From NCBI GenBank assembly GCA_027731085.1, contig JAQCDG010000002.1, forward strand, positions 1 through 52,912: a DNA stretch of 52,912 nucleotides, given 5' to 3'. Source of the DNA: Actinomycetota bacterium. GTDB lineage: Bacteria > Actinomycetota > Acidimicrobiia > Acidimicrobiales > Ilumatobacteraceae. The notes beneath the pieces are model-generated. The model saw only the letters and a list, made by a program, of their open reading frames with translations, made no database searches and was not told the DNA's origin. The position numbers were made by a program, and so were the translations under genes. The stretch's first letter is position 1. Each line of letters opens with the position of its first letter. Shown here piece after piece: positions 31,559 to 37,010 of the stretch.

Positions 31559-32542
31559 CTATTTGGCGCGCTTGGTTTCGTAATCGATGTCGTGTCGAAC
31601 CATCATCTCGATGAGTTCGTTGAACCCAACTTTGGGTTGCCAACCAAGTTTGGTTTTAGCTTTGGTGGCGTCACCGATTAACAAATCAACTTCAGCAGGT
31701 CTGAAAAACCGCTGGTCTTGACGCACATACTGGCGCCAATCTTTTAGATCGGCAGCCGCAAAAGCAACTTCAAGCAATTGTTCGATCGAATGACTCTTGC
31801 CTGTTGCGACGACAAAATCATCAGGCTTTGGTTGTTGAAGCATCATCCACATGGCTTCGACATAATCGCCCGCATAGCCCCAGTCACGCTTGGCTTCAAG
31901 ATTGCCCAGAACTAGTTCGCTTTGCACGCCGAGTTTGATGCGCGCAACAGAATTCGTGATTTTTCTGGTGACGAATTCGAGACCACGGCGCGGTCCTTCG
32001 TGATTAAACAAGATACCTGAGCAAGCGAACATATCGTAACTCTCGCGATAGTTGACGGTGATATCGTGCGCAAAAACTTTCGCCACGCCATAGGGCGACC
32101 GCGGATGAAATGGTGTCATCTCTGTCTGCGGGGTTTCGCGCACTTTACCGAACATTTCAGATGACGAGGCCTGATAAAAACGAATCGGGTTCTTGCGTGC
32201 GCCGCCCACCAAACGAATCGCCTCGAGCATTCTCAGCACGCCAAGTCCGGTGATGTTGCCGGTTAGTTCAGCCTGATTAAACGACATTGCGACGAATGAA
32301 ATTGCACCAAGGTTGTAAACCTCGTCTGGCTGCGACATTTCGAGCGCACTAACAAGGCTTGAAAAATCAGCAAGATCGCCCGGCACAAGTTGAACAAACG
32401 GAAACTCGTCGCGGATTGATTCGGCCTTCGGATTATTTTGTCCCTTTACGAGGCCAAAGACTTCGTAACCTTTCGTATGCAAGAATTCGGCAAGATGGCG
32501 ACCGTCTTGTCCTGTGATGCCAGTGATTAGCGCTCTTGCCAT
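31559..32542 (-). CDS. gmd: GDP-mannose 4,6-dehydratase
   Basis: 327 aa from ATG 32542; an ATG at 32551 would add three residues. NADP-binding [10 protein letters not shown] (8-17), the catalytic block SSSEMFG and Y-x3-K in SPYGVAK, and the Gmd-typical FNHEGPRRG and [14 protein letters not shown]. It makes GDP-4-keto-6-deoxy-mannose, the substrate of the fcl product at 40540. Convergent with the flippase gene, 10 bases between stops. Confidence 0.95.
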
Positions 32543-32644
32543 AACGACCATTCAATCTAGTGGCAAATGCGATTACGAGAGTTCTGCAGCCATCCAACTC
32601 TAAAAAAATGCGCCGATCTACATGAAGCCGTACGCTCAATAGTT

Positions 32645-33649
32645 GTGAAAGCAGAAAAAAGTTCGCTGTCGGTTGTTGTTCTTGCAGGTGGTGTGGGCGC
32701 GGCGCGCTTTCTTAACGGTCTCGCCCAAGTTAATTCACCAAAACTAACAATGGCCTTGGTCAACACGGGTGATGACACGGTGCTGCACGGTCTAAATATT
32801 TCACCCGACATTGACACGGTGATCTACACGCTCGCCCAAGCAATTGACCCACAACGTGGTTGGGGTTTGACAAACGAGTCTTGGCGCGCAATGGAGTCTT
32901 TGCAGCGCTATACAAAAGTGCGACCAGCCGATTCGGTCGCAGCCCCCGAGTGGTTCAACCTCGGCGATCAAGATCTCGCGACGCACTTTTATCGAACCGC
33001 GCGCAGAAGTGAAGGCGCCGATGCGTGGCAGATAACCCGAGAAATTTCAGCCGCTTGGTCTATCGAGCAACAAATCGTGCCGATGACAAATCAAGATGTC
33101 TCAACGGTTGTTGAACTCGCCCAAGATTGCATCGCCGGGAAGAGCGGCGAAGTAATCAGCTTTCAAGAATATTTCGTCAAATATAAACATGACATTGCGG
33201 TGCGGTCTGTGAGATTTGTCGGCATCGAAAACGCCAAGCCGAATGCATTGTCGCAACTAGCAACCGCTGATGCAGTCGTGATTGCACCGTCCAACCCAAT
33301 TGTTTCAATTGGGCCGATTCGTGCACTAAACGGCGTTGATGTGACGCTTGGCAAGATTAGAGATCGAGTTGTTGCGATTTCTCCAATCGTCGGTGGTCGC
33401 GCAATCAAAGGACCTGCCGATCGCATGCTCAAAGAACTTGGCCACGAGTCATCGGCGCTTGGCGTTGCGCGAATGTATTCATCAATCGCCTCAACTCTTA
33501 TCATTGATGACGTGGACGCAAGCCTGAAGCCTGCAATTGAAGCACTCGGCATGCGTTGCATCGTGACCAACACGATTATGTCTCAGCCAGAAATGAGCGC
33601 CGCGCTTGCACGAACTGCACTTGCATCTTTGAAAGATCATCAGAAATGA
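32645..33649 (+). CDS. cofD: 2-phospho-L-lactate transferase (coenzyme F420 synthesis)
   Basis: 334 aa from GTG 32645; an in-frame ATG at 32567 adds 26 residues that do not look conserved and would leave no promoter space opposite gmd. Signature blocks: VLAGGVGAARFLNG and NTGDDT-LHGL, followed by SPDIDTV-YTLA. CofD/FbiA joins the phospholactate (or phosphoenolpyruvate) moiety to the deazaflavin FO, giving F420-0 or its dehydro form. A TACGCT hexamer lies 8 bases before the GTG. Coupled to cofE by ATGA overlap. Confidence 0.94.
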   Translation: MKAEKSSLSVVVLAGGVGAARFLNGLAQVNSPKLTMALVNTGDDTVLHGLNISPDIDTVIYTLAQAIDPQRGWGLTNESWRAMESLQRYTKVRPADSVAAPEWFNLGDQDLATHFYRTARRSEGADAWQITREISAAWSIEQQIVPMTNQDVSTVVELAQDCIAGKSGEVISFQEYFVKYKHDIAVRSVRFVGIENAKPNALSQLATADAVVIAPSNPIVSIGPIRALNGVDVTLGKIRDRVVAISPIVGGRAIKGPADRMLKELGHESSALGVARMYSSIASTLIIDDVDASLKPAIEALGMRCIVTNTIMSQPEMSAALARTALASLKDHQK

Positions 33650-34359
33650 GCCGGCTAACGATTTGGGGCGTCGAAGGCATTGGCGAGATCTCGGCCAAAG
33701 ATCAACTAGGCGAAATTATCGCCGACATCTGCCGCCAAGAACCAAATGGGCCGTTGTTAGATAACGATGTTTTGGTCGTCACCCAAAAAATAGTCTCGAA
33801 GGCCGAAGGTCGACTTGTGCCGATCGATGCTTCTGATCCACTCAGTCACAAGCAACTAGTCGAACAAGAAGCGGTGCGCATCGTGCGTCGCCGCGGAGAT
33901 TTAATCATCACCGAAACAAGACACGGCTTTGTCTGCGCCAATAGCGGCATCGATCTGTCGAACATCGAACGGGGTTACGCGGCTCTCCTGCCGATTGACA
34001 GCGATAAATCGGCGCGCCGCATTCGAGACATAATCCGCGCCAAACACGGCGTCAATGTCGGCGTCATCGTTAGCGATACTTTTGGTAGACCTTGGCGCAA
34101 AGGACTGACTGATGTCGCCATCGGCATTGCCGGCGTTGCCGGCGTCGTCGATTTGCGCGGCACACCCGACTCACTGGGTCGCATTATGCAAGTCACCGAA
34201 GTTGCAGTTGCCGACGAGCTGGCAAGCGCAGCCGAACTCGTGATGGGTAAATCATCTGGCATTCCAGTAGCAGTGATCCGTGGCGTTGACGCTGAGTGGT
34301 TTCGTGATTCGAAAATCAGCGAACTAGTGCGTCCACCCCAAGAAGATTTATTTCGCTAG
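33646..34359 (+). CDS. cofE: F420-0:gamma-glutamyl ligase
   Basis: 237 aa from ATG 33646, the A of which begins the ATGA shared with the cofD stop. The CofE fold is recognisable from VVTQKIVSKAEGR, the R-R-x-G-D-L-I-I-T-E-T-R-H-G-F-V-C-A-N-S-G-I-D region and VSDTFGRPWR. It adds gamma-linked glutamates to F420-0 using GTP. It lacks the C-terminal nitroreductase-like domain fused in mycobacterial FbiB, so the dehydro-F420 reduction step would need another gene. Its last four bases overlap the convergent SDR gene. Confidence 0.94.
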   Translation: MSRLTIWGVEGIGEISAKDQLGEIIADICRQEPNGPLLDNDVLVVTQKIVSKAEGRLVPIDASDPLSHKQLVEQEAVRIVRRRGDLIITETRHGFVCANSGIDLSNIERGYAALLPIDSDKSARRIRDIIRAKHGVNVGVIVSDTFGRPWRKGLTDVAIGIAGVAGVVDLRGTPDSLGRIMQVTEVAVADELASAAELVMGKSSGIPVAVIRGVDAEWFRDSKISELVRPPQEDLFR

Positions 34360-35279
34360 ACAGTTCGTCCAAGCAACTCGCTAACTCCTGCTTCAAGGGT
34401 TGTCCAATGCGACCAACCAAGTTGAATTCTTGCACGGGTCGTGTTCACCGCGTTGCGTTGCAGATCGGCTGTTCGCGCCGACTCGTATGATTCTTGCAAT
34501 GTCGTATCACGACCAACGAGATGCCACAAGTCTTTGATGGTTGTTTGCACCCCCGTGCCGATGTTGATCACAAGTCCACCGCCTTTGTTGATTGCACGCG
34601 CCAAAGCGTCGACCGCGTCGTCAATGTACAAAAAATCTCGAGTTTGACGCCCGTTGCCACAAATAATTGGCGCGCTTTGATTAACGACAGCGTTAGCAAA
34701 CGCCGCGACGACACCATCTGTCGGGCGTTGGCGCGAGCCGTAGACATTGGTCATCGCCAGAGCGGTGAACTCGACATCGTAACTTTCGCGATAAACCGTC
34801 AACAGATCGACCAAAGTATTTGCCATCACATGAGCCACGCCCATCGGGTCTGACTTACGACCCTCTTTGACAGGCAGTTGTCGCGCCGGCACTTCGCCGT
34901 AAAGCAAACCGGCAGGCAATGCCACGACAACTTTTTTCACGTCAAACCTTCGCGCTGCCTCGAGCACCGAGATCAGCAAAGTCGCCGAGCGCAACATTTC
35001 ATTGGTGCGAGTTGCCCCCGTCGGCAAAAGTGCGAGGTGATAAATCACCGTTGGTCGGCGCAACGCAATCAAATCTGAAAACTCTGGTGCTGAAATGTCG
35101 AGATGATGAAAGCGCAGCGTGCCACCTGCTGCACGCGCCGCACTGAGGTTGGCAAGCGACCCAACCGAAAGATCGTCGACAACCTCAACGCTGTGACCAT
35201 CGGCCAAAAGTCGATCAGCTAGGTGCGAGCCAACAAAGCCGGCACCACCACAAACGAGCACACCGTTAACTTGTGCCAT
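34356..35279 (-). CDS. NAD-dependent epimerase/dehydratase-like SDR with catalytic triad lost
   Basis: 307 aa extended SDR. The cofactor loop GGAGFVGSHL (11-20), Asp35/Asp36 for the NAD ribose, and late motifs NVYGSRQRP and DFLYIDDAVDA are all intact. Where sugar epimerases have S-S/T, Tyr and Lys, this protein shows P122-A123 (ALPAGLLYGE), Met146 and His150 (DPMGVAHV), so all three catalytic residues appear replaced. It may bind a nucleotide sugar without the usual hydride chemistry, perhaps as a regulatory or structural partner. It lies 9 bases downstream of the nucleotidyltransferase on the same strand. Confidence 0.85.
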   Translation of the reverse strand: MAQVNGVLVCGGAGFVGSHLADRLLADGHSVEVVDDLSVGSLANLSAARAAGGTLRFHHLDISAPEFSDLIALRRPTVIYHLALLPTGATRTNEMLRSATLLISVLEAARRFDVKKVVVALPAGLLYGEVPARQLPVKEGRKSDPMGVAHVMANTLVDLLTVYRESYDVEFTALAMTNVYGSRQRPTDGVVAAFANAVVNQSAPIICGNGRQTRDFLYIDDAVDALARAINKGGGLVINIGTGVQTTIKDLWHLVGRDTTLQESYESARTADLQRNAVNTTRARIQLGWSHWTTLEAGVSELLGRTV

Positions 35280-35288
35280 TAAGTTTTT

Positions 35289-36293
35289 TTAACTCCCATC
35301 TGGAACTTTGGCGCCGCGCAACACTGCGCCAGATTTGACCTCACCGTCAACACCGATGAGACACTCGTTGACCTGTGCAAACGAGCCAACATGGCCCATC
35401 ACTGCGCTATCGATGACAACGGCATCATCATCAATAGTTGCGCCTGCAAGCAAAACCGAGCGAATAATCTGAGAGTTCTCGCCCACTTTGCAACCATGGC
35501 CAACAACGCTTTGCGAAATGGTCGCAGATTTTGCGATTTGCGACATTGAGCCAATTGCTTCAACTTTATGGATACTCTTGCGCTGCAATAATTCAATATT
35601 CGCGCGAACATATGTGTCGGGGCGTCCTGCATCAATCCAATAATCAGATGTCGCATAGCCGAACAACTCGCCATCTTCAACCAACTTCGGAAACGTCTCG
35701 CGCTCGATCGACATCGGCGCGACACCAGGCATCCGATCAAGCGCCGAGGCTTCGAAAACGTATGTTCCGCCGTTGACATTGCGCGATGTTGTCTCACCGG
35801 GCGACGGCTTTTCAACAAAACGAAGCACCTTGCCTAGCGAGTCTGTCTCGACGACACCGTATTGCGACGGATCATCGACTGGCGTCAGATGAATTGTTGC
35901 TTGTGCACCAGTTGATTTGTGAAACGAAACCAATGCTGCGATATCAAGATCCGTCAGCACATCACCGTTGGCGACAAGAAAAGTCTCACCACGCTTATAA
36001 ATCTCGGCATGGCGCGCCGCAAAACCAATCGCACCCGCCGTATCAAGCGGTCGATCTTCAACCGCATAAGTTAATTTGACACCCGCACAAACATTCGACG
36101 GAAACGCATTCAAGAACGGTTCGGGTTTGAAGCCAAGTGACAACACAGCATCGGTTACACCACCGCGAGCCAGCGATGCCATCAGTCTTTCGAGTAGCGA
36201 AAGGTTCGCGATTGGCAGAAGCGGCTTTGGTGTGGCCAGCGTCAACGGTCGCAACCGTGTACCAAAACCACCAACTAGCACGACTGCGTGCAT
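35289..36293 (-). CDS. Sugar-1-phosphate nucleotidyltransferase, mannose-1-P guanylyltransferase-like
   Basis: 334 aa. N-terminal nucleotide-binding G-G-F-G-T-R-L-R-P-L-T and PKPLLP, metal Asp in NGDVLTD, sugar site FVEKP and NGGTYVF, then W-IDAGRPDTY, and a C-terminal left-handed beta-helix of hexapeptide repeats from about residue 245. This is the GDP-mannose pyrophosphorylase/RmlA-like architecture. With manB, gmd and fcl in the window, GTP plus mannose-1-P is the likeliest substrate pair; glucose-1-P is the alternative. Confidence 0.85.
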   Translation of the reverse strand: MHAVVLVGGFGTRLRPLTLATPKPLLPIANLSLLERLMASLARGGVTDAVLSLGFKPEPFLNAFPSNVCAGVKLTYAVEDRPLDTAGAIGFAARHAEIYKRGETFLVANGDVLTDLDIAALVSFHKSTGAQATIHLTPVDDPSQYGVVETDSLGKVLRFVEKPSPGETTSRNVNGGTYVFEASALDRMPGVAPMSIERETFPKLVEDGELFGYATSDYWIDAGRPDTYVRANIELLQRKSIHKVEAIGSMSQIAKSATISQSVVGHGCKVGENSQIIRSVLLAGATIDDDAVVIDSAVMGHVGSFAQVNECLIGVDGEVKSGAVLRGAKVPDGS

Positions 36294-36321: not shown

Positions 36322-36990
36322 TTAACCAGTGATCAACGGATCAAGATCAGTAATCGTGATTGGCTGTGGCACCTCGACGTCTTTGGCGATAAAAGCCAAA
36401 GTAATCGCCATGCCATTGCCAGTCAGACGCACATTGCCGAGATCAGCAATCGAAATTTTTGGCGATGAAACTTTTGAATCCCAAACGACTACTTGCAAAT
36501 TTGCAGCTTTATCGCCACACTTCGTATCGGCTTCACTGATTAGTTCGCCGCCGTTCAACGAGTCTGGAAACTGAATCGAATCATTCGTCACCTTCAAACC
36601 GTAAAGTTCAAAAATTGTTTCGAGCTTCGCGCGTCGCTCACCCGACAAAACTTGCGGCTCCCAACGTACGACACCAGCAGACTCGATAAATGCGCCAGGC
36701 TTGACACTCGAAATATCGGTAAGGTCGGATGCGGCTGGCAAGTTTTCGATGAACGCATCGCACTTATAAATGCCAAACGCCGTGTAGTAGTTCTGCGTCG
36801 CGGTATCGAGCGCGCTAACTCGCTCTTGGCTCTGGCGGGCATAGGCGATTAGTGCAACACCGAGCACACAGACGACGAAAATGACCGTCGGAAACAACGA
36901 ACCGCCCTGCATGCGCACCTTGCGACCCTTGCGGTTCTTGCTGGCTTGAGCCAAACGGGCGATTTTTTTCGCTGAAGATGAGGTAGCCAC
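36322..36990 (-). CDS. Hypothetical single-pass membrane protein in glycan locus
   Basis: About 222 aa from GTG 36990 (TTG 36996 also possible). A basic N-terminus (KNRKGRKVR) precedes one membrane helix (about 32-51); the remaining 170 residues are predicted outside, with two Cys (in YKCDAF and TKCGDK) that could form a disulfide. I do not recognise a family. It lies between a GT4 gene and the nucleotidyltransferase, 20-28 bases from each, so it is probably part of the same transcript. A role in glycan export or attachment is only inferred. Confidence 0.65.
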   Translation of the reverse strand: MATSSSAKKIARLAQASKNRKGRKVRMQGGSLFPTVIFVVCVLGVALIAYARQSQERVSALDTATQNYYTAFGIYKCDAFIENLPAASDLTDISSVKPGAFIESAGVVRWEPQVLSGERRAKLETIFELYGLKVTNDSIQFPDSLNGGELISEADTKCGDKAANLQVVVWDSKVSSPKISIADLGNVRLTGNGMAITLAFIAKDVEVPQPITITDLDPLITG

Positions 36991-37010
36991 GAACAAGAAA
37001 TGCTACAGGC

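Follow-up and report, generated by a model that had tools for sequence, protein, structure and literature searches.

The manC-linked SDR gene and its active site

A frame of 307 codons, open throughout, lies on the minus strand of the window (the whole stretch of 52,912 nucleotides of actinobacterial DNA analyzed here) and is listed with its neighbors and key positions in Table 1. Its product, P0001, matches the Pfam Epimerase family (PF01370) with an E-value of 4.1e-35 and a score of 121.8 bits, against a gathering threshold of 20.9. This score, the GxxGxxG motif and the Rossmann fold of the AlphaFold model, compared using Foldseek, identify P0001 as a member of the extended SDR, or NAD-dependent epimerase/dehydratase, group. 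Among the NCBIfam models listed for P0001 none scores above its own cut-off, and the classical GalE model TIGR01179, which represents the same superfamily and presumed reaction as the ancestor of P0001, reaches only 55.9 bits against a cut-off of 262.3, placing P0001 outside that family. The AlphaFold model has a mean pLDDT of 82.4, falling below 50 at residues 1-4, 86-90 and 130-145, and its best PDB matches are Rv3634c of M. tuberculosis (GalE1, 7ys8; TM-score 0.87) and the GalE TM0509 of T. maritima (4zrm; TM-score 0.86), with which it has both the fold and the GxxGxxG motif in common. Rv3634c is described as a UDP-Gal/Glc 4-epimerase that is inactivated by S121A or Y146F and partly impaired by K150R, the secondary and quaternary structure being unaffected by these substitutions (PMC5389812).

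Table 1. Features of the SDR locus, with positions in the window
Feature	Position	Strand	Basis or remark
Triad-less extended SDR (putative pseudo-epimerase), P0001, 307 aa	34356..35279	-	Open frame, Pfam, ortholog alignment
GxxGxxG dinucleotide motif, residues 11-17, kept	35229..35249	-	G11, G14 and G17 in 103/103 family rows and 15/15 other triad-lost rows
Residue 98, here Ser; Asn in at least 90% of intact orthologs	34986..34988	-	Asn in 0/103 family rows and 5/15 other lost rows
P122, catalytic Ser position (Ser121 of Rv3634c)	34914..34916	-	Alignment; next residue A123
A149, catalytic Tyr position (Tyr146 of Rv3634c)	34833..34835	-	Alignment
A153, catalytic Lys position (Lys150 of Rv3634c)	34821..34823	-	Alignment
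ManC-like mannose-1-phosphate guanylyltransferase	35289..36293	-	PF00483; 9 bp upstream of SDR, same strand
F420-0:gamma-glutamyl ligase (CofE)	33556..34359	+	PF01996, E 7.6e-58; convergent, 4-bp overlap with SDR
2-phospho-L-lactate transferase (CofD)	32567..33649	+	PF01933, E 3.2e-43
GDP-mannose 4,6-dehydratase, another SDR of the cluster	31559..32551	-	TIGR01472, 420.1 bits, cut-off 415
Conserved protein, 224 aa, upstream of manC, same strand	36322..36996	-	Homologs beside ManC in many loci

The catalytic positions were set by comparison with P0002 (from L060), an intact ortholog with 46% identity to P0001 that is itself closest in the PDB to Rv3634c (7ys8, E 1.9e-92). The BLASTP alignment of the two proteins is gap-free over residues 123 to 182 and sets the Tyr position at A149 and the Lys position at A153. 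Measured against Rv3634c, P0001 differs at Ser121, Tyr146 and Lys150, at Asn98 and at several further positions of the active site; among those conserved in the intact orthologs, N98 is replaced by Ser and T125 by Leu, and Q85, V88, R89 and S91 are also altered. The GGAGFVG and VDDLS motifs and D35 are unaltered. A preliminary description of this DNA had proposed an in-frame extended SDR with intact cofactor motifs that has lost its Ser/Tyr/Lys triad, the Ser site reading Pro-Ala, and all of this is borne out. The same description had taken M146-x3-H150 as the Tyr/Lys equivalents, a register that is three residues out and that we rejected on the BLASTP alignment; we also looked in the alignment for a catalytic Tyr and Lys located elsewhere, and found none. 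By descent P0001 is thus of the GalE1/Rv3634c type, sharing the locus of the intact GalE1-type orthologs and having its best similarity to them, and it lacks the Ser/Tyr/Lys triad (P122, A149, A153) of an active enzyme of this type. The intact orthologs, judged by their likeness to Rv3634c, are presumably epimerases.

The genes around the SDR fit the nucleotide-sugar setting noted earlier, with GDP-sugar and glycosyltransferase genes adjoining. The best NCBIfam match of the window ManC is man1P_GTase_Rv, at 266.8 bits and below the cut-off of 440. The 224-residue protein upstream of it matches no Pfam or NCBIfam family; one apparent membrane helix can be seen in it by eye. Intact and triad-lost orthologs usually have the same gene order, with ManC and the SDR on one strand followed by CofE and/or CofD, mostly in convergent orientation; in the f31 loci CofE/CofD lie on the strand of the SDR itself. 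Scoring ManC as upstream when a match of >100 bits lay within 400 bp by open-frame bounds, we found it upstream on the same strand in 51/51 triad-lost rows of a thinned 114-row tree set. The five rows of this set without ManC in reach are all intact, some of them lying at contig ends or at another locus, and G407 and G074 likewise have an intact triad and no ManC seen beside the gene. The linkage extends to L318, from another family of the same class, and to L324, from the same phylum, both with YxxxK. No fusion of ManC and SDR in one open frame was found among 279 loci. A strict ManC motif pattern matches in 43 of the 51 lost rows, and each of the other eight has GGxGTRL.PLT with PK after it, so the nucleotide-binding motif seems preserved there too; with a looser second pattern, 9 lost and 10 intact rows gave no match. 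Retention of the SDR for reasons of polarity was considered and rejected, the gene being the last of its run and convergent with cofE. At many family loci (L039, L041-L044, L046 and others) there is no CofE match between CofD and the SDR; the gene may have been relocated or fused there, or have diverged too far.

Triad state in the family and the order

We read the triad in a 193-row alignment of orthologs, from which split frames (L033, L111 and L126), fragments (L254 and L257), duplicates and non-orthologs (L128, L129, L140, L150, L255, L258 and L259) were excluded. Orthology was clear from the scores: in a search of 100 relatives, orthologs gave at least 143 bits over their full length and the next matches, fragments apart, about 108 and below. 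Within the family of the window (f1, probably Ilumatobacteraceae) Tyr and Lys are both absent from all 105 rows, which represent 104 distinct orthologs with the window counted twice, and 11 of which are named contigs without a family code, assigned by 52-67% identity to the window protein. The Tyr position is occupied by R (32 rows), A (30), P (24), E (7), S (5), G (2), D (2), Q (2) or H (1), and the Lys position by A (92), T (7), S (5) or G (1). Direct reading of further genomes gave the same picture, with the triad missing in 6/6 of this family and kept in 5/5 of other families. The change is hence common to all family orthologs read rather than unique to the window, and a one-off change or sequencing artifact was rejected on this ground. 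A search at E 1e-25 matched 184 of the 221 genomes and 25 of the 27 genera of the family, or 24 genera when the weakest matches, those of genus g9, are set aside; we take these to be paralogs, because manC has no SDR next to it in the three g9 loci read.

In the other families 73 of 88 rows keep both Tyr and Lys. The 15 rows without Tyr belong to f3, f13, f15, f31, f44 and f58, one of them (L125) having no family code and being 90% identical to L242 of f31; their genomes came from a deliberate fetch of lower-scoring matches in the order, so that 15/88 is not a frequency. The order sample comprised 397 genomes, 249 of them with a match, part of which were read. In L125, L242 and L243, the latter two from genus g156, Tyr is replaced by His while the Ser-rich loop and Lys are kept, a possible partly active intermediate. 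G581 has two copies, at L246 and L256: the one beside manC lacks the triad, and the one elsewhere has Tyr and Lys. A search of viral contigs gave four loci (L076-L079), all distant GalE-like SDRs of 24-27% identity, with no closer relative among them. We found no account of this family of dead SDRs in a literature search that reached a small share of the matching literature.

The number of losses was approached from both genes of the pair. On the tree of the neighboring ManC (109 rows) the triad state changes eight times, a count that leans on weak branches, 44 of the 106 inner branches being open. The tree of the SDR itself, calculated without the triad columns, brings the lost rows together and requires two changes, this grouping having an SH-aLRT of 75.9 in a 29-row set. 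Taken at face value, this grouping would point to a dead SDR that arose once and then spread laterally, displacing the active copy at the manC locus of other families. We consider this unlikely. The ManC data reject a single lost clade (p-AU 1.6e-5, in a 29-row subset chosen after the trees had been seen), and the SDR data are compatible with placement of the lost rows with the intact members of their own families (p 0.22 for f13, 0.20 for f3, 0.43 for f31 and 0.21 for f15). In addition, the lost rows of other families differ in what stands at the Tyr position (H, G, A, R, D and F), and long branches attract; we read the grouping on the SDR tree as long-branch attraction. The triad thus appears to have been lost several times within one actinobacterial order, mostly where a second epimerase is present.

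Co-occurrence with a classical GalE

A classical GalE was counted as present when TIGR01179 scored over its cut-off of 262.3 bits. The intact GalE1 type reaches 145.1 bits against this cut-off, and the gene at the manC locus is therefore not itself counted as GalE. By this measure classical GalE is present in 30 of the 31 family genomes tested (28 read as triad-lost, and G050, G059 and G111 with the SDR deleted), in 14 of the 15 other lost genomes, and in 7 of the 77 intact genomes (G071, G073, G089, G321, G334, G452 and G453), with the proviso that many genomes are incomplete and the absence of GalE or SDR can be missing sequence. G317, which has GalE and no locus copy that we could find, was left out of the counts, and G490, represented by fragments, lies outside the GalE test. 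The GalE of the window genome, on another contig (L291), has both SSSA and YAETK. Among ten lower-scoring but intact genomes (G417, G413, G300, G469, G407, G454, G334, G435, G364 and G585) a single one has GalE, and divergence alone is therefore no explanation of the association.

A Fisher test of triad loss against GalE gave p 1.3e-10, uncorrected for phylogeny. An author-coded Pagel-type test over 85 rows of the ManC tree gave a likelihood ratio of 42.9 (3 degrees of freedom, p about 3e-9), and the reversible fit gave 45.1, with rates that do not show GalE first. The starred branches hold four independent pairs, of which on average 2.5 agree with the association and 0 run counter to it, too few for significance. 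The two triad-lost genomes in which no classical GalE was found are G043, of the family, and G379, of another family, whose loss is mild (Tyr to Gly, with Ser and Lys kept); the seven intact genomes with GalE are exceptions of the opposite kind. An order in which GalE came first and the loss second would fit the seven genomes with GalE and an intact triad; neither G379 nor the reversible fit supports it.

GalE-type SDRs form dimers. The dead SDR might accordingly serve classical GalE as a non-catalytic subunit instead of partnering ManC, a reading with which the co-occurrence of the two genes and this dimerization both agree. Where read, in the window genome, the two genes are not neighbors, and the dead gene stays beside manC and is carried without GalE in G043 and G379, all of which leaves this reading highly unlikely.

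Selection on the dead SDR and its possible role

We compared the constraint on the dead SDR with that on its neighbors using median Nei-Gojobori dN/dS values over pairs with dS of 0.15-1.3. In genus g1 the values are 0.049 for the SDR, 0.080 for ManC, 0.039 for CofE and 0.089 for CofD, and in genus g5 they are 0.028, 0.079, 0.038 and 0.065, respectively. In both genera the dead SDR is under tighter constraint than ManC and CofD, and its constraint is close to that of CofE. A smaller set of four pairs gave 0.174 for the SDR, against 0.139 (ManC), 0.133 (CofE) and 0.294 (CofD), and the two pairs of lost f31 rows gave 0.131, against 0.105, 0.130 and 0.237; these two sets are less clear, the SDR value being no lower than those of ManC and CofE in either. 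For f58 there are zero pairs in the dS range. Wider comparisons, at 0.37 family-wide and 0.34 for intact orthologs, have high dS and are little informative. With its catalytic residues gone and the protein conserved under selection, P0001 has the sequence characteristics of a pseudoenzyme, the selection being clear in two genera only.

What is kept was measured as mean retention over 111 sites conserved in 73 intact rows. In 103 family rows it is 0.90 for the NAD half, 0.24 for the active-site stretch at residues 81-101, 0.50 for the Ser loop, 0.47 for residues 131-160 and 0.73 for the C-terminal half; the corresponding values in the 15 other lost rows are 0.91, 0.56, 0.44, 0.62 and 0.68. The GxxGxxG motif and D35 of the NAD site are present in all 118 lost rows (103/103 family and 15/15 other), from which it would follow that the dead SDR still binds NAD. 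The earlier suggestion of a selected non-catalytic role is supported by these data: the loss extends to every family ortholog read, dN/dS is low in two genera, and the NAD half is kept where residues 81-101 are not. The alternative offered with it, a different chemistry, would make the protein still an enzyme acting on an NDP-sugar with other catalytic residues. In favor of this, R214 is present in 103/103 family rows, and the family has K138, R185, R284 and H19 as new residues at a frequency of 90-99%. Against this, R214 is absent from 6 of the 15 other lost rows (present in 9/15), the loops at 86-90 and 130-145 are modeled with pLDDT below 50, and no new catalytic residue appears to be fixed at the catalytic positions themselves, the Tyr position being variable and the Lys position Ala in 92/105 family rows. 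We regard new chemistry as improbable and unsupported by the alignment.

The gene might instead be a decaying relic, disappearing after GalE took over and without any retained function. In seven family genomes read, G036, G058 and G153 (g9), G050 (g23), G059 (g10), and G110 and G111 (g13), ManC is present with CofE or CofD adjoining it and the SDR between them is gone (loci L280-L283, L285, L288 and L289, identified by reading the manC-cofE/cofD interval). Further copies are split over two frames (L033/L111, L126 and L250), and median identity within the family is 52%, lower than the 63% of the intact orthologs, which come from many families. The clean deletions show that the SDR is dispensable in those genomes and not essential to ManC, and together with the split copies they mean that any retained function can be dropped. 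The dN/dS values of g1 and g5, lower than those of ManC and CofD and near that of CofE, largely refute decay for these genera, and the NAD motif in every lost row and the matches in nearly all family genera also speak against it, so that we hold a relic without function to be decidedly unlikely. With regard to the deleted and split loci themselves, an interval of about 540 bp is left between ManC and its neighbor (in G059; in L285, between ManC and CofD); the split copies L250, L126 and L033/L111 may be real decay or assembly error. G100, G106 and G108 (g13) and G054 have no ManC either at E 1e-50.

The explanation that we favor, and consider fairly probable on the sequence evidence, is that P0001 is a pseudoenzyme that arose at its present locus from an epimerase of the GalE1 type and was kept for an NAD-dependent, non-catalytic role. 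The ancestor would have been a UDP-glucose 4-epimerase resembling Rv3634c, encoded at the same chromosomal place just downstream of manC. A classical GalE elsewhere in the genome would have made epimerase activity at the manC locus redundant, and this redundancy would have permitted the Ser/Tyr/Lys/Asn site to decay, while the protein was kept for a second, older function that needs the NAD-binding half and no catalysis.

For the retained job we can offer a guess by analogy, an NAD-dependent action on ManC or the glycan pathway, for which MAT2B and GMPPA provide the models. MAT2B has an SDR fold of the RmlD-like subgroup, and so resembles P0001 as a non-catalytic SDR-fold protein acting with a bound dinucleotide, although NAD binding and a partner are only predicted for P0001, and MAT2B is a human protein of another SDR subgroup with another partner. 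As the regulatory subunit of human methionine adenosyltransferase II it is described as non-catalytic and as binding and stabilizing the enzyme in an NADP+-dependent manner (PMC11445541, PMC3506619), and one paper states in its title that MAT2A is stabilized but not regulated by MAT2B (PMC8638259). GMPPA is reported to be a non-catalytic regulator of the GDP-mannose pyrophosphorylase GMPPB (PMC11228364). It shares with P0001 the idea of a non-catalytic protein tuning a mannose-1-phosphate guanylyltransferase, an effect that is hypothetical for P0001 and ManC, and differs in being a paralog of the transferase itself where P0001 is a dead epimerase. That the dead SDR is a MAT2B-like, NAD-bound partner stabilizing or tuning the neighboring ManC is accordingly a tentative proposal, to which we give rather less than even weight. 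A broader version is somewhat more doubtful still: the manC-linked GalE1 of this order may be a two-function protein, acting as an epimerase and also, without catalysis, as an NAD-sensing controller of the synthesis of GDP-mannose (or envelope glycan). On this view its functions were separated some eight times, in lineages with another epimerase able to assume the catalysis, and only the controller was left.

The usual account of a pseudoenzyme is that of a duplicate released from catalysis. In the present case catalysis seems to have been lost repeatedly from an orthologous gene that kept its locus, and the losses go together with the presence, at a different locus, of another enzyme for the same presumed reaction. 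Strong selection acts on the dead protein in two genera at least. This makes it directly testable whether the GalE1-type epimerase, a type found also in Mycobacterium, has a hidden second function. The epimerase annotation of such genes is probably wrong across a whole actinobacterial family, the public records of which are largely from lakes.
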